A program made the translations under genes and the position numbers. A stretch of DNA of 9,667 nt, taken from contig JBDREC010000067.1 of NCBI GenBank assembly GCA_043820105.1, positions 1-9,667 of the forward strand. The letters are read 5' to 3'. Below, piece by piece: positions 86 through 9,538 of the stretch (its first letter is position 1; the number at the start of each line of letters is the position of its first letter). Under the pieces are notes generated by a model. It did no database searches. It was given only the letters and a program-made list of their open reading frames with translations, and had not been told where the DNA came from. Source of the stretch: JBDREC01 sp043820105 [NCBI: Pseudomonadota bacterium] (GTDB taxonomy: Bacteria; Bdellovibrionota_F; JAHFAK01).

Positions 86-141
86 GGTAGGTGGACCACT
101 TTTGCGTCCGATTACTGGACCAGTTTATCGTCCGATTTGCA
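86..141. mobile_element. Probable right terminus of an IS21-family insertion sequence
   Basis: Two 22-bp imperfect direct repeats lie at 92-113 and 116-137, a 24-bp period, with 19 of 22 positions identical. Each reads TGGACCA-[C/G]-TTT-NN-CGTCCGATT. Multiple terminal repeats of the form TGG-N-CCA/ACA-CTTTT...TCCGATT (or TCGGAAT) are characteristic of IS21-family ends, which finish in CA; a CA is present at 140-141 and another at 144-145. The AT-rich DNA at 1-85 has no credible gene and would be the stretch between istB and the IS tip. The transposase genes would lie left of the window and are not visible, so a solitary remnant end is equally possible. The family assignment rests on recalled consensus, not a search. 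Confidence 0.55.
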
Positions 142-514
142 GACACTGCTCAAAGCAATTAAATTGCATTGCTATGAATGTAGTGGCTTCAGTAAAAAAG
201 ATGTTCGTGAATGTAATGGTAGGGCTATCATGTATGATAATGCTTGCCCTTTGCTTCCCTATCGAATGGGAAAAGGTCGACCTAATGTCAAAATAACTAA
301 GGACTATTGCAAGGTTTGTGTTAAGAATAGTCATGAAATATTAAGAGAAGGCTCAGCTTGTAGAGATTGCTCATTAAAAGATTTCCGTCTTGGAAAAAAT
401 CCAAACTATAAAAAACATAAAAAAATACCCAATGTGACTAATAATAATTTATCCCAAAACACCCCTCTGACTAGCAAAAAACAATCAATTTTAATGTTTT
501 TAGAGGAGGATTAA
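137..514 (+). CDS. Cys-rich duplicated-motif protein, left copy, probably N-terminally truncated
   Basis: Small protein of unknown function with two tandem copies of a C-x2-C ... C ... C-x-L-x2-[YF]-R-[ML]-G-K motif. Counting from the TTG, the cysteines are C12, C15, C26, C37 in the first copy and C58, C61, C75, C78 in the second, so each copy could bind one zinc. A lysine- and asparagine-rich tail of about 35 residues follows. The - strand copy near 4180-3890 is clearly homologous (HC-x2-C, PYRMGKGRP versus PFRMGKGRP, GKNPNYKK versus GKNSNYKK), but it has an ATG and about five more N-terminal residues. Here only a TTG without a ribosome binding site is available, inside the IS21-like end. 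The frame is open back to 50 with no ATG, so the native start was probably removed by the insertion. The next gene begins 5 bp after the stop, suggesting one operon. The true start is uncertain; the open frame and the conserved motifs are solid. Confidence 0.7.
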   Translation: MQTLLKAIKLHCYECSGFSKKDVRECNGRAIMYDNACPLLPYRMGKGRPNVKITKDYCKVCVKNSHEILREGSACRDCSLKDFRLGKNPNYKKHKKIPNVTNNNLSQNTPLTSKKQSILMFLEED

Positions 515-518
515 TACT

Positions 519-809
519 ATGTATTCAAAAGCAAAAAGATCATTGAAATTTGAACCCAAATTAGTTAGTTTTAATGAGCAAAAAACAAAAAAGTTCTTTG
601 AAATAAAAATAGATTCCTTTCTTACTGTTCCAGAACTAGCGAAATGGTTGAATCTTAAAGAAAGTGCGATTTACAATCTTGTTTATTATAGACGGATTCC
701 TTTTAATAAGATTGGTCGCAGACTAAGGTTTAACAAGAATGAAGTACAACAGTGGTTAGATGCAAGTGGAGGCAAAGGAAATTATGTATATCAGAAAGAT
801 TCCTACTAA
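519..809 (+). CDS. Excisionase-like HTH protein (HTH_17 / MerR-type), left copy
   Basis: Protein of 96 residues with a winged helix-turn-helix of the excisionase/HTH_17 type at about residues 34-83: FLTVPELAKWLN, then the recognition-helix stretch ESAIYNLVYYRRIPFNKIGRRLRF, then NEVQQWLD. Such proteins bind att-arm DNA as recombination directionality factors or regulate the integrase promoter; which applies here is inference from position. The basic N-terminus (about 30 residues, rich in Lys) is shared with the - strand paralogue (M-Y-x-x-x-[KR]-R-S-L-K-F). A strong ribosome binding site, AGGAGGA, ends 8 bp before the ATG. The gene overlaps the downstream integrase by 26 bp in another frame, indicating translational coupling. 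It is the middle gene of a Cys-rich / HTH / integrase operon. Confidence 0.85.
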   Translation: MYSKAKRSLKFEPKLVSFNEQKTKKFFEIKIDSFLTVPELAKWLNLKESAIYNLVYYRRIPFNKIGRRLRFNKNEVQQWLDASGGKGNYVYQKDSY

Positions 810-1923
810 GAAAAAAGGTACTATGTACCAATGTGATGTTTGCACTAATCATCAAAGATTTTCAAAAAGATTTTCTAGAAAAGTGGATGCTGAGATGTGG
901 GCTAAGCAACTTGAGTTAAAGAAACATGAAACCGATTTTGGTGAAATAAAGAATAAGAAAATGACTTTTCATGAAATTGCATCAAAATGGATAGCAAAGC
1001 ATGCTGAAATGAAAAAAGCAAAAAGCAGCGTGATCAAAGACAAGCAAATATTAAGGCAATATTTATTTCCCAGATTTGGCAAATTTGATTTTAGAAGCAT
1101 AAGTCCTGAAATGATTGATGATCATATTGTTTATATTAAAGAGATCATACAGCTATCTAATTCCTCAGTTAATCAGCATCTAGCACTTATGAAAACTATT
1201 TTTAATTACGCTATCAAAAGGCGTTATGCTAGATATAATCCCGTTATGGCAGTTGATATGTTGCCTTTAAATCAAAAGGAAGTTGAATGGTGGACCTTAA
1301 AAGATGTTGAAAAGTTTTTGAATTATCAAAAAGATAAGAAGCACTACTTGAGATATTTAGTTGGTGTTAATACTGGACTTAGACCTGGAGAATTGTTTGC
1401 TCTGAAGTGGAGTGCAATTGATTTTAGTAATAGATTGATTTCAATTAAGCGAACATACGAACACAGTACAAACTCCATTAAAGAAACAACAAAAGGTAAA
1501 AAGATTAGACACATTGGGATTAATGAAAGCATTTTCGAACCACTTTTAGAGGCTTTTAAAGCTAATGGAAACAAATATGAACTTGTCTTTGGGAATGAGC
1601 TAGATAGAGCAATTTCACAGACCTCCTTTCTTCAACAATGTTTTTACAAAGACACTATGCGAATTGGTATGAAGAAAATCACTTTTCATGCTTTTTGTAG
1701 ACATACATTTGCTACTAACTATATCATTAATGGAGGTCGAATTGAGGATTTACAAAATATTCTAGGGCACTCTGATTTAAAGACAACTATGAAGTACATT
1801 CATCTTTCAAAAAACTATCTAAGAGACAAGATGGATGTTGTTAATTTTTCACCTACCGAAGATATCCAGTCACAAAATATCATAAATTTAGAAGATGTAA
1901 GAAAGGTAAATCAAGGACTGTAA
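784..1923 (+). CDS. Tyrosine recombinase (phage-type integrase), left copy, altered box II
   Basis: Site-specific recombinase of 379 residues. It has an N-terminal arm-binding region (about 1-50), a SAM-like core-binding domain (about 60-160; TFHEIASKWIAKHAEMKK ... NQHLALMKTIFNYAIKR) and a C-terminal catalytic domain (about 165-345). Catalytic residues visible are R200 (TGLRPGE), a likely beta-hairpin K237 (TTKGKK), R306, H329 (LGH) and the nucleophile Y338 (TTMKYIHL). Box II reads H302-A-F-C-R306-H, so one residue has been inserted in the family's H-x-x-R, and activity may be impaired. I prefer the ATG at 784 over the one at 760: it is preceded by GGAGG and AAAGGA, and it aligns with the MYIR start of the - strand paralogue. 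The start overlaps the HTH gene. The stop lies 77 bp from the 3' end of the tRNA-Arg gene, the usual type of attachment target. Confidence 0.92.
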   Translation: MYIRKIPTKKKGTMYQCDVCTNHQRFSKRFSRKVDAEMWAKQLELKKHETDFGEIKNKKMTFHEIASKWIAKHAEMKKAKSSVIKDKQILRQYLFPRFGKFDFRSISPEMIDDHIVYIKEIIQLSNSSVNQHLALMKTIFNYAIKRRYARYNPVMAVDMLPLNQKEVEWWTLKDVEKFLNYQKDKKHYLRYLVGVNTGLRPGELFALKWSAIDFSNRLISIKRTYEHSTNSIKETTKGKKIRHIGINESIFEPLLEAFKANGNKYELVFGNELDRAISQTSFLQQCFYKDTMRIGMKKITFHAFCRHTFATNYIINGGRIEDLQNILGHSDLKTTMKYIHLSKNYLRDKMDVVNFSPTEDIQSQNIINLEDVRKVNQGL

Positions 1924-1932
1924 TGTGAAAAA

Positions 1933-1962
1933 TTACGAGTTTTTTACGAGTAAAATCGTAAA
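1933..1962. repeat. Short direct and inverted repeats between integrase and tRNA
   Basis: TTACGAGT occurs at 1933-1940 and again at 1944-1951, an 11-bp spacing (one helical turn). The second copy is also the left arm of an inverted repeat, TTTACGA (1943-1949) with TCGTAAA (1956-1962) around a 6-base loop. Helically phased short repeats beside a tRNA and an integrase gene are what integrase arm-type binding sites look like. A weak transcription terminator is the other option, but there is no T-run after the stem. The function is inferred. Confidence 0.35.
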
Positions 1963-2000
1963 TAAATCCTTGGTCTCGCTTAAGGTATTGAAATCATTCA

Positions 2001-2072
2001 TGCCCCCAATAGGAATCGAACCTATAGCTGAGGATTAGGAATCCACTGTTTTATCCATTAAACTATGGGGGC
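2001..2072 (-). tRNA. tRNA-Arg (anticodon CCU)
   Basis: A complete 72-nt cloverleaf can be folded on the - strand. The acceptor stem is GCCCCCA/TGGGGGC with discriminator A. The D arm is GTTT-AATGGATA-AAAC, the anticodon loop TTCCTAA (anticodon CCT, reading AGG), the variable loop 4 nt, and the T arm ATAGG-TTCGATT-CCTAT. CCA is not encoded. The anticodon stem GTGGA/TCCTC has one U-U mismatch at the second pair (28:42), which is unusual, and the D stem is AT-rich. The 3' end faces the + strand integrase and the 5' end faces the - strand integrase. A well-placed promoter lies just upstream, so it is probably expressed. It is the likely integration target for at least one of the two flanking elements. 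Confidence 0.93.
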
Positions 2073-2075
2073 ATT

Positions 2076-2093
2076 TAAATTTTCGAAAATTTA
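2076..2093. repeat. 18-bp perfect palindrome next to the tRNA 5' end
   Basis: TAAATTTTCGAAAATTTA is a perfect palindrome, 3 bp upstream of the tRNA gene. It overlaps the -10 hexamer and the presumed start of the tRNA transcript. It could be a protein-binding site, a recombinase core site or a cruciform. AT-rich composition raises the chance expectation, so its function is open. Confidence 0.5.
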
Positions 2094-2119
2094 TAATCAC
2101 AATTGTTATAAGATTTCAA
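2091..2119 (-). promoter_or_regulatory. Sigma70-like promoter of the tRNA-Arg gene
   Basis: On the - strand a -35 box TTGAAA (2119-2114; five of six match TTGACA) is followed after exactly 17 bp by a -10 box TTATAA (2096-2091). Transcription would start near 2084, giving a leader of about 12 nt before the mature tRNA. Box quality, spacing and position all agree; the -10 box is shared with the palindrome. Confidence 0.55.
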
Positions 2120-2241
2120 CAAATTAATTGGGTTTGTTTGCAGCTGCATTAAGACGGAGGATTTCATTTCGTATTTTTAACGAAAAAATGCCGAAAATAA
2201 TAATTCGTTTTTTAGTTATGGCGAAGGATTTTTTGATTTTA

Positions 2242-3375
2242 TTAAATCTGTGATTCTTTTTTAAAGTTGATAGGTATAACATTTTCATCAAACTTCTCTG
2301 GATCTTTTCCAAACTTTACCACATTCATCTTAGAGACAAGGTAATTTTTTTCCAAATGAATATATATTTTTGTCGTTGTTAATTCATGATGGCCAAGAAT
2401 CATTTGAAGATCACTGATATTACCTCCTTCTATAATGTAGTTTGTAGCAAATGTATGGCGGAGATCATGAAAGCAGATCTTTTTAACATTAGCTTTTTCA
2501 ATATCTTTGGTAAATATTTTTTGTGTAAATGTACTCGGAGAAGGAACCCTATCATTTTTATTGCCAAAGACTAATTCTTTTTTCCCAGCGTTTTGATTGT
2601 TAGCTTCTAGTAAAAGGTTATAAATCTCATTGTTAATACCAATGTAACGAATTTTGTGACTCTTGGTTGTATCTTTAATGGAATTTGTACATTGCTGAAA
2701 AGTTCTACAAACAGTTATTATATTGTTCTCAAAATCAATGGTATCCCATTTGAGTGCTAGCAATTCACCTTCTCGCATTCCGGTATTCAGCGCGACCATG
2801 TAAAGTAAAAAGTAATTTGAGTTTCTATTTGCTTCCAGAAATCTGTTTGCTTCGTCAATCTGCCAATAATCAATCTTTTTAGGTTCAACTCTTAGTAAAT
2901 CAACTGAAGTGACAGGATTGTATTTAACATATTTTTTCCGGTTTAAAGCGTAATTAAATATGGTTTTCATGATCGCCAAATGTTGATTTATAGAGGCATT
3001 AGATAGATTAGTATTCTTTTGTAGAATTACTACGTAATCATCAATCATTTCAGAAGTGATTTTACAAACATTAAATTCTCCAAATTCTGGTAAAATATAC
3101 TGTCTAAGCATTTGCTTATCTTTTCTTACACTGCTTTCAGACTTTTTAACTTCTGCATGTTTTGTGATCCATTGATCAGCCAATTCTATAAATTTGAGTT
3201 TTTTACCTAATTCGTACGAATTTTCATAATCTTCATTTTCTTTAGCTAATTTAGCTGCCCAAATAAAAATATCAGCTTTTCTTCGAAATGTATTACAATG
3301 TTTTTTATGGTTTAAGCAAAGTTCTACTTGAAACACTTTTCCAAATTTCTTTGTCATCCGTTCTCTAATATACAT
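2242..3375 (-). CDS. Tyrosine recombinase (phage-type integrase), right copy
   Basis: Site-specific recombinase of 377 residues, homologous along its whole length to the + strand integrase on the other side of the tRNA (for example SSVRKDKQMLRQYILPEFG, NQHLAIMKTIFNYAL, GMREGELLALKW, LVFGN, HTFATNYI). It has an arm-binding N-terminus, a core-binding domain (about 60-155) and a catalytic domain. The catalytic set is intact: R201 (TGMREGE), likely K238 (TTKSHKIR), H303-D-L-R306 (FHDLRHTFA), H329 (LGHH) and Y338 (TKIYIHL). The ATG is preceded by AAGGAGAG at good spacing and overlaps the end of the HTH gene by 11 bp, so the two are translationally coupled. The gene converges on the tRNA from its 5' side (169 bp away), an uncommon arrangement for a tRNA-targeted element. 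Of the two integrases this one is more likely to be active. Confidence 0.95.
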   Translation of the reverse strand: MYIRERMTKKFGKVFQVELCLNHKKHCNTFRRKADIFIWAAKLAKENEDYENSYELGKKLKFIELADQWITKHAEVKKSESSVRKDKQMLRQYILPEFGEFNVCKITSEMIDDYVVILQKNTNLSNASINQHLAIMKTIFNYALNRKKYVKYNPVTSVDLLRVEPKKIDYWQIDEANRFLEANRNSNYFLLYMVALNTGMREGELLALKWDTIDFENNIITVCRTFQQCTNSIKDTTKSHKIRYIGINNEIYNLLLEANNQNAGKKELVFGNKNDRVPSPSTFTQKIFTKDIEKANVKKICFHDLRHTFATNYIIEGGNISDLQMILGHHELTTTKIYIHLEKNYLVSKMNVVKFGKDPEKFDENVIPINFKKESQI

Positions 3376-3637
3376 AGTACTCTCCTTTATTTGCTTTCAA
3401 CCACTTTTCTATTTCCGTATGACGAAATCTTAGTCTACGTCCTATTTTTAGGAATGGAATTTGCCTGTAATGTACTAAATTATATATCGCTTTCTTGCTA
3501 CAATTCAGCCAATGAGCAAGATCATCCACCGTAAGTAGCTTTTCAGCAGTTATGTCAAAGAGCTTTGTTGTTTTACAATATAGAGGCTTAAACTTTTTTA
3601 TATTAAATTTCAATGATCTTTTTCTAAGTTGATACAT
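3365..3637 (-). CDS. Excisionase-like HTH protein (HTH_17 / MerR-type), right copy
   Basis: The predicted protein has 90 residues: a lysine-rich N-terminus and a winged HTH (LLTVDDLAHWLNCSKK ... YNLVHYRQIPFLKIGRRLRF ... EIEKWLK) that matches the left-hand copy closely. It probably acts as a recombination directionality factor or regulator for the adjacent integrase. I chose the ATG at 3637 because the protein then begins MYQLRKRSLKF, matching the paralogue's MYSKAKRSLKF, with AGGGGG 11 bp upstream. The same frame stays open to an ATG at 3820, and AAAGGGA precedes ATGs at 3820/3814, so a longer 149-151-residue form is possible; those extra residues have no counterpart on the left. An 11-bp inverted repeat, GTATAGTATAC (3639-3649), sits directly before the chosen start and might be an operator. 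The integrase gene overlaps its end. Confidence 0.85.
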   Translation of the reverse strand: MYQLRKRSLKFNIKKFKPLYCKTTKLFDITAEKLLTVDDLAHWLNCSKKAIYNLVHYRQIPFLKIGRRLRFRHTEIEKWLKANKGEYYVY

Positions 3638-3889
3638 AGTATAGTATACCCCCTGGCAAGAACTCACCAATTTCACCTCGTTTTCTTGAGCTACAAGGCC
3701 ATTTTCTACCCTTAAATTCATGGTTCCTGCCCTTATTGTTTCTTTAAAATTATATATAGAAATTATACAGGTCGGTTCTCCTGCTTGTAAAAATGACATT
3801 TTTTTTTCATACATAAGCATTCCCTTTATATAAATATCTTTTAAAGCACCGATATATTATTAAAATAAATATCAATTATTCATGCTTTT
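3638..3889 (-). other. 252-bp spacer within the right module, with in-frame upstream ORF
   Basis: In the left module the Cys-rich and HTH genes are only 4 bp apart; here 252 bp separate them. On the - strand the spacer holds an in-frame N-terminal extension of the HTH gene of about 61 codons. It has several internal ATGs with partial ribosome binding sites (AAAGGGA before 3814, AGGA before the ATG at about 3721). There is also a GTATAGTATAC inverted repeat at 3639-3649. It may be a regulatory leader, an independent small peptide or a real extension; the sequence alone does not decide. Confidence 0.35.
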
Positions 3890-4180
3890 TTACTTTTTAT
3901 AATTGGAATTTTTACCCATTCGAAATCTCCACAGAGCGCAGTCTTCACTTTGGCATTCCCTTACTGCAGATTTATCGCTGCCCATACAATTGAGACACTC
4001 TTGCCTAACTAGCTTTACAGTGGGTCTTCCCTTGCCCATTCTAAACGGGTGTAAAGGGCATGGGTCAAATGCTGTTTCCCCATCACACTTTTTGACATCA
4101 GATAAATTATCCAAGCCAGTGCATTGTATGCAATGACTTCTTATGGATTTTGATGTAGAACAATTCTTCTTTAATACCAT
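3890..4180 (-). CDS. Cys-rich duplicated-motif protein, right copy (intact)
   Basis: Protein of 96 residues with two tandem C4 units: C17-x2-C20, C32, C41 and C62-x2-C65, C76, C81. Each is followed by L-x2-[FR]-R-M-G-K (CPLHPFRMGKGRP and CALWRFRMGKN). The regular spacing suggests two small zinc-binding or other metal-binding knuckles made by internal duplication. Similar short CxxC...CPL-x-PYR-x-GK proteins occur, from memory, in phages and integrative elements; I know of no established function. The ATG has AAGGGAG 6 bp upstream. It is the first gene of the Cys-rich / HTH / integrase module, and the conservation of this order in both modules suggests a role in recombination, its regulation or element maintenance. 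The left copy carries an extra C-terminal tail that this one lacks. Confidence 0.88.
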   Translation of the reverse strand: MVLKKNCSTSKSIRSHCIQCTGLDNLSDVKKCDGETAFDPCPLHPFRMGKGRPTVKLVRQECLNCMGSDKSAVRECQSEDCALWRFRMGKNSNYKK

Positions 4181-4303: not shown

Positions 4304-4795
4304 TTATGAAATTAAACCTCCTTTCTTAATTGTATCCTTGCTTGATTGAATATACTTCTTTTTAAAAATAATTTTTAAGATCTCATTTGCTAACTTTTTA
4401 TCAGATTCAGCTTGGTGATTATACTCTTTCATTGTTTTAAAAATAATATCATGCCTAGAAATTTTAATCCCTTCCTGATTTTGAGTATTACAAGTACAAT
4501 ACTGAAAATAGTTTTTAATATTTTTATCAGATTTGTCATATAACACTTTGAATATAAGCTTTTTAGGTTCTGTATTCAGTACCTTGGCAATATTGAATGC
4601 TGCAAGTAATGAGGGCAATTTTGAACCCGTCATGATTTTAGTTAAATAACTATTGCTTATATTTGCAAGTTTACTAAACTCTTTAAGATTTTTTGCTCTT
4701 AAATGATTATCAGGATTTGTAATAAATTCACTTACCATATATTTTATCCATATCACGGATTCTTTCATTTCATATCTTTGATTTTCTTTTTTCAC
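4304..4795 (-). CDS. XRE-type HTH transcriptional regulator
   Basis: Protein of 163 residues with a Cro/C1-type helix-turn-helix at about residues 36-82: KNLKEFSKLANISNSYLTKIMTGSKLPSLLAAFNIAKVLNTEPKKLI. The SNSYLTKIMTGSKLP stretch is the recognition-helix region. The C-terminal half, with a CTCNTQNQ stretch and a lysine-rich end, is not recognised and may be for dimerisation or a ligand. The start is a GTG with AAGGAGG 7 bp upstream; the nearby ATG at 4800 gives only ATG-CGG-TGA. It is transcribed divergently from the primase-helicase, and repeated sequences in the shared intergenic region are candidate operators. By position it would be the element's repressor or copy-control protein, likely autoregulated (inference). 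Confidence 0.85.
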   Translation of the reverse strand: MKKENQRYEMKESVIWIKYMVSEFITNPDNHLRAKNLKEFSKLANISNSYLTKIMTGSKLPSLLAAFNIAKVLNTEPKKLIFKVLYDKSDKNIKNYFQYCTCNTQNQEGIKISRHDIIFKTMKEYNHQAESDKKLANEILKIIFKKKYIQSSKDTIKKGGLIS

Positions 4796-4943: not shown

Positions 4944-5091
4944 TTATTGGAAAAAACTACTGCTTTCGTCCTGAATATGATGTTATTTTAATAAATCTAA
5001 AATGATTTTTTTGCTTAAACTTCAAATTGTATTTTTGTATAAAATATATTATGGTTTTAAATTATTATTTCATTTAGAGAAAAGTTTTTCC

Positions 5092-7806
5092 ATGTCCAAT
5101 AAAAATACTCTTCCCCATAGATTAAAATTGATACCAGAAGATTTAGGTAAAATAAAGCCAGAAGGATATTTTACTGAAATACAAATCAAAAAATATAATA
5201 GGGATAATTATAATATATACTATTTTGTAAATGAGGTTAAAGTCCCGCGAGGAATTAGAAATGCAAAAAATATTTATGTTAAAAAAATAAATGCTTTATT
5301 TGTTGATTGTGACTTAAAAGATTATTTAGAAGATAATAAGGTAAATCAGGAAAAGTATCCAGGAGCAACTCTAGGCAAACTAATTGGGAATGGAAAACAA
5401 TACTATTCAAAAAAAGAATTTTTAGATGAAGTTAGAAAATTTCACCTTCAACCTTCGAAAATTGTCGATTCTGGTTATGGAATCCACATTTATTGGCATT
5501 TAAAAAACACACCTAAATTGTTTCCTGTCGATGATTTTGCTTTTTTTCAACAGGCTCTCGCTAATTATTTCAACACTGATCCCGTAAAAGATCCAGTCAG
5601 AGTAATGCGCTACCCAGGAACTTATAATGTAAAATATAATAGAAATAAATTGGTTAAATATATAAATAAAAATTGTGATGAAAACCTTAGATACTCTTAT
5701 GATGATTTTTATAAAATATTCTATAATGAAATAATTGAATTGCAGAATAGTGCAAAGAAAAGAGGCCGACCCAAGAAACCACTTAAGATAGACAATATAA
5801 CTGTTTCTAGTCAATTGCCAAGGAGTTTTGCAAATATCTTAAAGATTAAACCAAAAATATGGAAATTGTTTAAGTGCATTGGTGATAAGTATGCAAACGA
5901 CACAAGCAAGGCTGACTATGCTCTTTCGTGTAAATTAATAACAAACAGTTTCTGTTACGAGGATATCTATTCAATTTTGGCTAATGCCCCAAAAGTATCT
6001 AATAAAGATAGTCGTTATATTGAGAGCTATATTAATAACACAATAAGCAAGGCAGCTGCAGAAATTGACATAGAGATTCCACTTAAAAAACATGGGGTTA
6101 AGCGCAGAGGAGGGTCCGCTGTTGGCCACAGGGTAAATATAGTAACTACCCCACCTATCCTTCGCTGTGTAATTACACGGCCAAGTAGTAGAAATAAAAG
6201 GAAAAAACTTCATGTAATTTCTGCATTCAGAAAGAGAATCAGCTCTGAAGAACTATACATTATCCTAGATAACTTAATCAATAATCCCAAGCCAGGCGCG
6301 TGTGAAATCATTCCAGAGCATCCGGGAAGCGGAAAATCGGCAGCTATTATTAATCTCTGTCTGCAAATAAGACATCAAAACCGCGGAGCTATTATTGTTA
6401 AGGAAAGAAAGGAAGATCTTTATCTGTTAGAAAAAGACCTCAATAACCAAGATCATGTTTTTTGTCTGGTTGGCCATGGAGATGTAATTTGTGAAAAGAA
6501 AATTCTCAATGCTGACAAATTATATTCTCCTTGCAAGGGTTGCAGTATTAAAAGATGTTCTGCTCATCCAACAAAATTTAAAGAACAATATAAATACCCA
6601 ATTCTTCTTATGACAAAGAAACGATTCCAGATAGAAACTTTTTCTGGTAATGGCATGAAGAATTTTATTAACTATATCTCTGGCGGAACAAAGGGTAAAA
6701 GAGAATTTTTGTTCATTGATGAAAATCCAGATTTAATTGCTAATTCTCATTTTTCACAAGAACAAGTTATTAATTTTTTAAGTAAGCTTGGAGATCTCTT
6801 TCATGGAAAGGAAGAATCAAAGATCCCTACTATATTGAACAGTTTAAATAAGCTTAATAGACATATTGATGAATCAAAAAATACAAATACAGGGGTTATT
6901 GAAATTAATCCTCATGAGTTAGAATTATCTTTTGATAAGAAAGAAAAAGACAAATTAATTGAAAAATACAATAATAAAGCAATCGAACTAATCGATAAAT
7001 TAAATATATTGAATGAACATGGTGGATTACTTTTTTCCAAAATAAGAGAATCAGATAATAAAACAATCAATATAGTTTATCCAGACAAGAGATTTTCTCT
7101 AAATCAAGATGAGCTAACAACCTTGCTGTTTGATGGTACAGCCACTTTGGATCCTTCTTATTTAAAGTATGACATTAATCCTGTTGGAAAAATTAAAAGC
7201 TTTAAAAATCTATATTTCCATATACAAGATAAGCAAGTATGTAAATCGAATCTATCTAATCAAAATACGAAAAATCATTATATACCAAAAATATTAAATG
7301 ATATTCGAGCTATTCAGATGGAACAACCAGACAAGAGATTATTCGTAGTTACTACTGTGTCTGATGGAATTGAGGATGAAATTAAAGAAGAGATTAAGGA
7401 ATTAAACCTGAAAAATATTAGAGTAAATCATTATCAAAACTTAAGAGGATCCAATGAATACAGCAAAAGTACTCTAATTTATTTTACTCATATCAATCAA
7501 AAATCAATCGAATATTATATTAGCTATGCTTCAGCGATTTACGGGAGAAATAATATCTTAAAAGAAGATCTTTCTGGAATTGATAAACAAGGTTCTGGTG
7601 GAAGAAGAGGCTTTAAGTCTAGCAAATTAGAAACTATAAGATGTCAGGAAATAGTTACTGATCTTATCCAATGCATTTTTAGAACAAAGCTACGAGTAAC
7701 AGAGGATGAAGATATTCATGTCTATATTGGAATTGAAGATTTAACAATCTTATATTATTTATTTGAATATTTTGAAGATGCCAAAGTATATTCTTGGCAT
7801 CCATAA
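5092..7806 (+). CDS. Primase-polymerase / P-loop helicase fusion replication protein
   Basis: Large replication protein, 904 residues from the ATG at 5092. Residues about 65-180 resemble an AEP-type primase-polymerase: FVDCD (D72, D74), SGYGIHIYW (H132) and VRVMRYPGTYN. A linker with an AT-hook core, KKRGRPKKP (about 222-230), leads to a PriCT-like helical segment (about 266-323, DTSKADYALSCKL). The helicase part has Walker A PGSGKS (411-416), four cysteines C467-x13-C481-x2-C484-x4-C489, a DEN-P Walker B (D543, E544), DGTAT (about 681) and an arginine-rich motif VI-like QCIFRTKLR (860-868). Four Cys between motifs I and II recall the iron-sulphur domain of XPD/DinG helicases, though a zinc site is possible. 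The frame opens at 5002, but those 30 residues are hydrophobic, lack a ribosome binding site and read like non-coding DNA; the site before 5092 is also weak. It would replicate the excised element. Confidence 0.85.
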   Translation: MSNKNTLPHRLKLIPEDLGKIKPEGYFTEIQIKKYNRDNYNIYYFVNEVKVPRGIRNAKNIYVKKINALFVDCDLKDYLEDNKVNQEKYPGATLGKLIGNGKQYYSKKEFLDEVRKFHLQPSKIVDSGYGIHIYWHLKNTPKLFPVDDFAFFQQALANYFNTDPVKDPVRVMRYPGTYNVKYNRNKLVKYINKNCDENLRYSYDDFYKIFYNEIIELQNSAKKRGRPKKPLKIDNITVSSQLPRSFANILKIKPKIWKLFKCIGDKYANDTSKADYALSCKLITNSFCYEDIYSILANAPKVSNKDSRYIESYINNTISKAAAEIDIEIPLKKHGVKRRGGSAVGHRVNIVTTPPILRCVITRPSSRNKRKKLHVISAFRKRISSEELYIILDNLINNPKPGACEIIPEHPGSGKSAAIINLCLQIRHQNRGAIIVKERKEDLYLLEKDLNNQDHVFCLVGHGDVICEKKILNADKLYSPCKGCSIKRCSAHPTKFKEQYKYPILLMTKKRFQIETFSGNGMKNFINYISGGTKGKREFLFIDENPDLIANSHFSQEQVINFLSKLGDLFHGKEESKIPTILNSLNKLNRHIDESKNTNTGVIEINPHELELSFDKKEKDKLIEKYNNKAIELIDKLNILNEHGGLLFSKIRESDNKTINIVYPDKRFSLNQDELTTLLFDGTATLDPSYLKYDINPVGKIKSFKNLYFHIQDKQVCKSNLSNQNTKNHYIPKILNDIRAIQMEQPDKRLFVVTTVSDGIEDEIKEEIKELNLKNIRVNHYQNLRGSNEYSKSTLIYFTHINQKSIEYYISYASAIYGRNNILKEDLSGIDKQGSGGRRGFKSSKLETIRCQEIVTDLIQCIFRTKLRVTEDEDIHVYIGIEDLTILYYLFEYFEDAKVYSWHP

Positions 7807-8255: not shown

Positions 8256-8305
8256 TACAATATCTAACTTGTTGATATCATAGCAGGTTATTGCAGGGGG
8301 GGGAG

Positions 8306-9538
8306 ATGAGACTTTTTAATATATCATTCTTTTTATTATCTTTAATTTATATTTTTTGTTTAGGCTGTTTAGTTGTGGAGGAGCCTAGTAGCACTTCTGG
8401 AAATAATAATCCCAATAACAATACTGATGAATATGATAATGGGGATAATGATCAATATTCACCTGATGTTACGGATGAGGAAGTTAGCGCCAACGATTCA
8501 ACAGATGATTATGAAATTGAATATGAAAGTCAAAATATTCTAACTATCAATAATGATGATTATTCTCTTAATGTTTATATTGAAATTGATGATGTTTTAT
8601 TTGATTTATATTACAAGGAGGGGAATCAATACTATCTCAACATTAATGACAGTTATGGAAATAGTCTTTTTACAATATTATATTACCCATATTCCGAATA
8701 TGAAATCGAATCAGACGATCTTCCTTTAGGTTCAGATTTGCATCCAGAAATACAAATTTATGATTCGACATCGACCTTAATACTCTCAAGTTTATTTGAA
8801 ACTACAAATTATCAAGGAGAAAGTGAAGATAGTTTTACGCTTGAAAGTGGATATATAACAGAAATTTATTTGGAGATAGTTGATAATTCCTCTGATGAGG
8901 AAGAAGAAGAAACAGTTGTCGACATAACTTCCCCAACAATATCAACTATAAATCCAGATGATTCTGACACGGATGTATCGATAAATTCTACTATTACTGT
9001 AACTTTCTCAGAAGCAATAGATTCATCAACCGTATATGCTGTTACTGATAGTACTGATTGTTCTGGTACAGTTCAAATATCATCAGACGATTTTTCAACA
9101 TGTATTCAGATGTCTGATGATCCAACTGTCTCAGATGATGGAACAATTTTTACATTTATTCCAGCAAGTGACTTATCTTATGAAACAACTTATAAGGTTA
9201 AGCTCACAATTTATATAGCAGACGAATCAGGTAATTATCTTGAATCAGAATATATAATGGATAATGGTTTTACAACAGGAGTTGAACCTGATACAACTGC
9301 ACCTGAAACAACGCTAGATTTATATCCATTGGATCCAGATAATAGTGCAACATTTGAATTTAGTTCCAATGAAGTAGGATCAACTTTTGAATGTGCAATT
9401 GATACAGAGGCATATGAATCTTGTACAAGTCCAAAAGAATATACATCATTAGATGATGCCAGTCATACATTCTATGTTAGAGCAATTGATTCATCGAACA
9501 ATACTGATGATTCAGCGGCTTCTTATGTAAGCGGCTAG
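8306..9538 (+). CDS. Putative surface lipoprotein with Ig-like (Big_5-type) and cadherin/HYR-like repeat domains
   Basis: Protein of 410 residues, probably exported. The signal peptide MRLFNISFFLLSLIYIFCLGC ends in a relaxed lipobox (CLGC), so C21 would be the lipidated residue. An acidic Asn/Asp/Ser-rich linker (about 22-70) follows, then an unrecognised beta-rich region (about 75-195) and an acidic stretch (DEEEEE). A Big_5-like domain comes next (about 206-325: SPTISTINPDDSDTDVSINSTITVTFSEAI ... YETTYKVKLT ... GFTTG). The C-terminal repeat (about 331-408: TTAPETTLDL ... STFECAID ... SHTFYVRAIDSSNNTD) matches a widespread extracellular repeat with a likely disulphide. I chose the ATG at 8306, preceded by AGGGGGGGGAG; a TTG at 8291 is in frame but lacks a good binding site. 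An eight-G run lies in this binding site. Likely role: surface display or adhesion (inference). It appears to be a host gene outside the element. Confidence 0.82.
   Translation: MRLFNISFFLLSLIYIFCLGCLVVEEPSSTSGNNNPNNNTDEYDNGDNDQYSPDVTDEEVSANDSTDDYEIEYESQNILTINNDDYSLNVYIEIDDVLFDLYYKEGNQYYLNINDSYGNSLFTILYYPYSEYEIESDDLPLGSDLHPEIQIYDSTSTLILSSLFETTNYQGESEDSFTLESGYITEIYLEIVDNSSDEEEEETVVDITSPTISTINPDDSDTDVSINSTITVTFSEAIDSSTVYAVTDSTDCSGTVQISSDDFSTCIQMSDDPTVSDDGTIFTFIPASDLSYETTYKVKLTIYIADESGNYLESEYIMDNGFTTGVEPDTTAPETTLDLYPLDPDNSATFEFSSNEVGSTFECAIDTEAYESCTSPKEYTSLDDASHTFYVRAIDSSNNTDDSAASYVSG

Follow-up and report, generated by a model that had tools for sequence, protein, structure and literature searches.

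Two related integrase modules face a single tRNA-Arg(CCU) gene from opposite sides in a bacterial contig

Positions 1 to 9667 of contig JBDREC010000067.1 (the window; 9667 bp, GC content 30%) contain two mirror-image gene sets, each encoding a Cys-rich protein, a helix-turn-helix protein of the HTH_17 family and a tyrosine integrase. The left module spans 137-1923 on the plus strand and the right module 2242-4180 on the minus strand, with one tRNA-Arg(CCU) gene between them; both modules and the tRNA gene are thus present as the initial annotation had described them, in the order Cys-rich, HTH, integrase in each copy and head-on around a single tRNA. In the left module, CysL (137-514, +) is a two-repeat, zinc-finger-like Cys-rich protein whose second repeat has its third Cys displaced, HTH_L (519-809, +) is an excisionase-like DNA-binding protein (PF12728, E = 7.5e-11; TIGR01764, excise, E = 8.8e-12), and IntL (784-1923, +) is a tyrosine recombinase (PF00589, E = 3.2e-23) with the sequence HAFCRH at box II. 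The listed open reading frame (ORF) of IntL runs from 760 to 1923, and the start homologous to that of IntR is the ATG at 784. In the right module, IntR (2242-3375, -; PF00589, E = 1.3e-29) has a canonical box II (HDLRH), HTH_R (3365-3637, -) is again an excisionase-like HTH_17 protein (PF12728, E = 1.5e-12), and CysR (3890-4180, -) is an intact two-repeat Cys-rich protein. The ATG at 3637 was chosen by homology as the start of HTH_R, since it aligns with residue 1 of HTH_L (the mechanical ORF list starts at 3820), and both HTH proteins score above the curated cut-off for PF12728/TIGR01764. Beyond CysR, a Cro/cI-like HTH_3 repressor gene (4304-4795, -; PF01381, E = 1.5e-6; PHROG transcriptional regulators) is divergent from the gene of a 934-aa putative primase-helicase (5002-7806, +; PHROG primase, E = 4.2e-7), whose N-terminal part is primase-like and whose C-terminal part is ATPase/helicase-like. 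A RepB_primase_C match to this protein (E = 0.005) falls under its cut-off, and Walker-like HPGSGKS and helicase-like motifs were read by eye. A longer unit, extending at least to position 7806, probably includes the right module.

All three proteins are pairwise homologous yet clearly diverged, as had been proposed: when aligned with BLASTP, the Cys-rich proteins share 39 of 89 residues (44%, E = 2e-26), the HTH proteins 49 of 91 (54%, E = 2e-30) and the integrases 184 of 368 (50%, E = 9e-133). The E values of the three pairs rule out a chance resemblance of the modules, and identities of 44-54% rule out a recent duplication. Compared with eight other integrases, neither IntL nor IntR exceeds 32% identity, against the 50% between the two. 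The conservation of gene overlaps claimed in the initial annotation holds for the HTH and integrase genes (26 bp on the left, 11 bp on the right) but not for the spacing of the Cys-rich and HTH genes, which measures 4 bp in the left module against 252 bp in the right one (69 bp with the HTH_R start at 3820). At the megablast level, nothing among plasmid and phage records matched the window. Scans of viral sequences with the integrase pair, the HTH pair, the tRNA pattern and the primase matched nothing; those with IntR and with the Cys-rich pair gave one locus (25% identity) and three loci, respectively, and one scan of genome contigs yielded two remote loci.

The mirror-image layout and common gene order could also be explained if one ancestral element had been duplicated in inverted orientation, or if two tandem elements had been rearranged by an inversion around the tRNA gene. 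Opposed integrases do recur in other genomes beside relatives of the Cys-rich gene (loci and genomes collected for comparison carry L and G numbers): a second, inverted integrase is found near the Cys-rich gene in L135, L137 and L141, at 5.4 kb from it in L144 and at 7.5 kb in L143, and L136 has one integrase plus a 60-aa integrase fragment. However, the 50% identity of IntL and IntR excludes a recent duplication, the paired integrases of those relatives flank other genes rather than a tRNA, and no att-like (attachment-site-like) inverted repeat stood out that would speak for the inversion between att sites offered in the initial annotation. We consider this history quite improbable.

The tRNA-Arg(CCU) gene (2001-2072 according to Rfam, 2000-2073 according to ARAGORN; minus strand, no encoded CCA) has its 3' end towards IntL, which ends 77 bp from it, and its 5' end towards IntR, and it lies downstream of intR on the same strand. 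We propose that two related small tRNA-targeting integrative elements of one class share this tRNA gene, the left one at its 3' end and the right one on its 5' side, a reading to which we assign a probability of roughly 0.57. The core of the class would consist of a tyrosine integrase, an HTH_17 excisionase or regulator, the Cys-rich protein and a primase/helicase, which the left element too would have possessed, and such elements would probably be self-replicating. Both would use tRNA-Arg(CCU): the left element by standard 3'-end integration, with its integrase beside the restored 3' end, and the right element by 5'-side integration, which would place the tRNA downstream of and in line with intR and possibly under transcription from the int operon of the right element. 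As the window holds no convincing att repeat, the two-sided insertion is one that we infer. Of the histories initially suggested, two related elements accreted at one site is the best reading, given the diverged homologues, the relatives with the same genes at tRNA genes and the precedent of L140 (see below).

Expression of a tRNA from an integrase promoter at 5'-type islands is described, as a situation seldom met in bacteria, in passages of one study (PMC8371274). In a more far-reaching version of the shared-tRNA reading, which we regard as decidedly improbable, tRNA-Arg(CCU) would be a double hybrid, the right element having given its 5' part and a promoter through int read-through, and the left element its 3' part. 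If true, neither element could leave without the remnant of the other keeping the AGG-decoding tRNA alive, and the locus would represent a two-sided tRNA capture in which integrases of one family use opposite halves of the target. Three bases separate the 5' end of the tRNA from a perfect 18-bp palindrome upstream of it, TAAATTTTCGAAAATTTA (2076-2093). No terminator-like site was found in 1900-2300, a weak result since chance expects only 0.2. When the tRNA sequence itself was sought in other genomes, the phylum to which the alphaproteobacterial metagenome-assembled genome G002 belongs gave matches in 21 of 398 genomes, at no more than 82% identity, and the order of G559 gave none in 119.

The position of the tRNA between both integrases would also suit a different scenario, in which it is cargo of one of the elements and replaces a host tRNA-Arg broken elsewhere, as in tRNA-dependent lysogeny; known examples are phages that bring along a copy of the tRNA which they disrupt (PMC10865867). 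However, the 3' end of the tRNA adjoins IntL as at ordinary attachment sites, a second tRNA copy is not visible in the window, and the cases given in the sections of PMC10865867 that bear on this come from actinobacterial phages, so that we judge the cargo scenario very unlikely.

The relatives bring the tRNA targets into clearer view. At L146, genes for a Cys-rich protein, an AAA_25 protein, an HTH_17 protein and an integrase lie on one strand, which is the left order of the window plus one helicase gene, and a tRNA 3' fragment, recognised by eye, follows right after the int stop codon. Likewise by eye, the 3' half of a tRNA lies just outside the second, inverted integrase in L135, L137, L141 and L144. 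L140 (7261-15709) holds an 8.4-kb 5'-type island at tRNA-Arg(CCG), whose integrase borders the tRNA at its 5' end. The 5' part of this tRNA recurs 8.4 kb upstream, in the same orientation, as a 57-bp copy with 98% identity, and the primase and Cys-rich genes lie within this interval; the island comprises an integrase, a Lin1244-like gene, a primase-helicase and a Cys-rich gene. From these sequences, the insertion of Cys-carrying elements seems to occur at the 5' as well as at the 3' side of tRNA genes, and L140 is the clearest precedent for insertion on the 5' side.

These relatives also bear on the possibility that the right element did not use the tRNA and entered a short AT-rich core upstream of it, its nearness to the left element being a hot-spot coincidence. 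The best end repeat of the right element is the 12-bp direct repeat TTATAAGATTTC (2106-2117/8148-8159), a candidate for such a core, which brackets the region from intR to the primase, and the right side bears no tRNA fragment. Against this, relatives do bear tRNA fragments at their ends, and it seems improbable that a homologous element would land by the same tRNA without using it. A repeat as long as TTATAAGATTTC arose in 65 of 1000 dinucleotide shuffles, a frequency that counts against this scenario and also against a shared tRNA. Overall, we hold an entry at an AT-rich core to be unlikely.

Returning to the proposal that both elements use tRNA-Arg(CCU), several further observations weigh against it. 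A displaced tRNA fragment, 3' or 5', is absent from the window, with no 3' fragment in 1-1990 and no 5' fragment rightward up to 9667; the best scores of tRNA alignments within the window were reached in 83 to 148 of 200 shuffles. Local alignments in search of att-like repeats compared the left end, both tRNA flanks, the stretches following CysR and preceding the primase gene, and the intergenic region on the right. None stood out: of the two best scores, that of the left against the right flank was reached in 17 of 300 shuffles, and that of the right flank against the right-hand intergenic region in 19. Because no tRNA fragment is present, neither far end is seen and both would lie outside the window, that of the left element probably to its left; either the far ends of the islands are outside and the lipoprotein-like gene described below is cargo of the right element, or the right element used another site. 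Promoter-like matches occur on the tRNA strand between intR and the tRNA (2265-2197; the scan gave 4 sites over both strands against 1.6 expected), so that read-through is not needed for tRNA expression, and a promoter of the tRNA's own is possible. Among the relatives, an intact partner tRNA was sought in the fetched DNA of L141, L144 and L146 and not found, and L020 contains no tRNA repeat of at least 14 bp in its 15 kb. The L140 integrase, 29% identical to IntR, points away from its tRNA, whereas IntR points towards it. The two best integrase matches, L116 and L117 (27-32% identical), overlap or adjoin HTH_17 genes and have neither a Cys-rich gene nor a tRNA, and the window primase has no phmmer match among the other collected proteins.

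The left element appears to be decaying and the right one intact, as judged from the box II sequence of IntL and from a probable IS21-like end at the start of CysL. The HAFCRH of IntL has one surplus residue between the catalytic His and Arg (HxxxR rather than HxxR), and alignments to solved integrases place the gap at box II. Among 58 distinct tyrosine integrases that we collected, 41 fit HxxR and only IntL fits HxxxR; the other 16 fall outside the simple pattern, and the seven of these that were inspected keep the two-residue spacing, six with Tyr replacing His. IntL is homologous to tyrosine integrases, and its catalytic competence is doubtful, with impairment predicted from its sequence. 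CysL has no clear start. Its first in-frame start codon, TTG 137, begins where a 22-nt direct repeat ends, sharing one base with it, and lacks an upstream Shine-Dalgarno-like sequence, while the following in-frame TTG (164) directly adjoins the first Cys; the N-terminus of CysL has probably been lost. The two repeat copies (92-113 and 116-137) are 86% identical, with 24 bp from start to start, and repeat pairs separated by 23 bp are described for IS21 ends in the relevant text of PMC10122671. By this resemblance, positions 92-137 are probably the inner end of an IS21-like insertion sequence (IS), a family name suggested by the repeat pair, whose body would lie left of the window and whose insertion probably deprived CysL of its start; the end, if of this family, would span 92 to about 143, with the two repeats inside a terminal inverted repeat. 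Searches for an IS copy that matches this end were negative, and the second end and the transposase genes would lie outside the window. With up to two mismatches allowed, a motif scan gave hits in 8 of 165 genomes, a yield that did not surpass that of the reversed control; in the six loci fetched, only single motifs were present and no transposase was recognised by eye. In the proposed history, the left element would be the older or a dead one, the IS21-like insertion having taken the start of CysL and the HxxR motif of IntL having been stretched to HxxxR.

CysR consists of two CxxC...C...C-x-L-x-x-[FY]-R-x-G repeats, and both CysL and CysR match the hidden Markov model (HMM) of a CxxC...C...CPLYPFRxGKNP family of phages and mobile elements. 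Most collected members have one repeat, with two in CysL, CysR, L004, L005 and L020. Searches of Pfam, PHROGs, NCBIfam and PADLOC at the limits used gave no family for CysL and CysR, 13 family members gave only weak, scattered matches in Pfam and PHROGs, and a literature search on the motif strings returned nothing. The predicted structure of CysR (mean predicted local distance difference test score, pLDDT, of 40) was not used. Cys relatives are present in plasmids and phages, and the motif, sought with one DNA pattern, occurs in 57 viral stretches, some of them near-copies of each other. Using purpose-built HMMs for tyrosine or serine recombinases, we found a recombinase within 2.5 kb of 10 of the 61 Cys ORFs in these stretches; of the 21 Cys ORFs flanked by at least 2.5 kb on both sides, 6 have one, against 55 of 343 control ORFs of the same stretches, leaving 15 of 21 Cys copies with no recombinase found within this distance. 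HTH_17 models matched nothing in the 57 viral stretches. As a rule, then, viral Cys genes are not integration genes. As a separate observation, a Cys-rich gene on a viral contig (L001, 863-2765) lies tail-to-tail with the gene of a 521-aa serine recombinase, about 70 bp from it (by eye).

In cellular genomes, the two-repeat Cys model matches 4 of 398 genomes of the G002 phylum. Two of these loci, L020 and L021, are small elements with a tyrosine integrase, with the order Int-...-Cys beside tRNA-Ser in L020 and an HTH_17 gene overlapping the Cys-rich gene by 4 bp in L021; L022 has a probable integrase (named by eye) 3.6 kb off, beside tRNA-Ser, and L023 is prophage-like by eye. In the phylum of G559, which is also that of the Tenacibaculum genome G001, Cys-rich genes occur in 10 of 198 genomes at 12 places, all of which were fetched (L135-L146). 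Within about 0.7 kb of the Cys-rich gene, 11 of the 12 loci contain a primase or replicative-helicase-type gene, and 8 of the 12 have a tyrosine integrase. An HTH_17-Int-primase-Cys element recurs in L135, L136, L137, L141, L143 and L144, with one primase family throughout (Pfam Prim-Pol plus PriCT_2 in two scanned loci, a purpose-built HMM for the rest); L142 has a primase remnant, L140 PriCT_1/DnaB_C, and L138, L139 and L146 have AAA_25, which we take to mark a RepA-like helicase. At L145, whose neighbouring genes were not scanned, no primase or helicase was recognised. The Cys count is not one of independent cases, because five of the ten genomes (G434, G446, G469, G523 and G531) share one element family.

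Starting from the integrases, no Cys match was obtained in 34 loci (L082-L115) chosen by their integrase match and taken with flanks of about 1.5 kb, nor in nine that were extended. Of 30 listed integrase places, ten had no locus, two of these falling inside L123 and L124; another of the ten, G446:C52, lies about 0.1 kb from a Cys-rich gene (L141). The idea that Cys does not go with these integrases was dropped, as the L141 integrase adjoins Cys. Seven of the ten Cys genomes also belong to the group of 19, out of 296, whose integrase matches are closest. Cys is thus absent beside most integrase matches looked at and present beside some. In L117 (8153-10022), an integrase gene lies between two related HTH_17 genes on the same strand.

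From the conserved trio, the initial annotation had concluded that the Cys-rich protein takes a functional part in this integration system. This is weakly supported, with an integrase in 8 of 12 loci, and is opposed by the viral copies without a recombinase nearby and the 34 integrase loci without Cys. With a primase or helicase as its near-constant neighbour and an integrase as a frequent one, our data point to Cys as a replication-core gene of the elements, inherited together with Int and HTH and better viewed in this role than as part of the integration machine. The protein would most likely bind zinc and DNA and, working with the primase, have its role in replication or copy control and not in strand exchange.

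Beyond the primase-helicase lies a lipoprotein-like gene with a Big_5 domain (8291-9538). A run of eight G (8296-8303) directly precedes its ATG at 8306 in this 30% GC sequence, and a run of this length arose in 1 of 100 shuffles; slipped-strand phase variation of the gene is possible. Matches to NF047737 (methylation-associated defence protein MAD1) of 47.1 and 52.7 bits lie under the curated cut-off of 80, and a defence role was rejected, the MAD1 and PADLOC matches both being weak.

Among known systems, tDNA genomic islands and their tandem arrays, as covered in portions of the Islander report (PMC4383910), are alike in having a tyrosine integrase beside a tRNA; arrays and rare 5'-fragment islands are recorded there, with a 5' fragment in 159 of 3919 islands and 125 entries under 'Tandems >= 2'. 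By its layout, the left element is arranged as a 3'-type tRNA island, and the right one would fit the minority 5'-type class. Unlike the Islander islands so described, the window has two homologous integrase modules facing one tRNA from opposite ends, and no end-marking tRNA fragments within it. Accretion of integrative mobilizable elements, integrative and conjugative elements and cis-mobilizable elements (IME, ICE and CIME) at one att site, as outlined in parts of PMC5704250, resembles the window in that related elements are stacked and one has decayed; those tandems lie side by side, whereas the window modules are head-on around the tRNA, with no relaxase among the nine window ORFs scanned. 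If the right element is a 5'-type insertion, sibling integrases would occupy opposite ends of one tRNA gene, and the tRNA would come under int transcription.

The Cys-rich family is widespread and has no convincing entry in the libraries searched. It stands beside primase/helicase genes in small elements and occurs also in phages, and hence is a candidate, open to testing, for a small factor in the replication of mobile DNA. Small primase-bearing satellites, such as those like phage-inducible chromosomal islands (PICI), and integrative plasmids pack an integrase, an excisionase-like HTH protein, a repressor and a primase/helicase into a few kilobases. The window elements share this gene set, the satellite features being compared from general knowledge, and differ in the unnamed Cys-rich protein; of the window ORFs scanned, none was recognised as a packaging or capsid-interference gene, the ends of the elements being outside view. 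As far as our library scans and literature searches reach, the elements are apparently an undescribed variant of small tRNA-targeting integrative elements, and what is unusual about the locus is mainly how mobile DNA of a known type is arranged.

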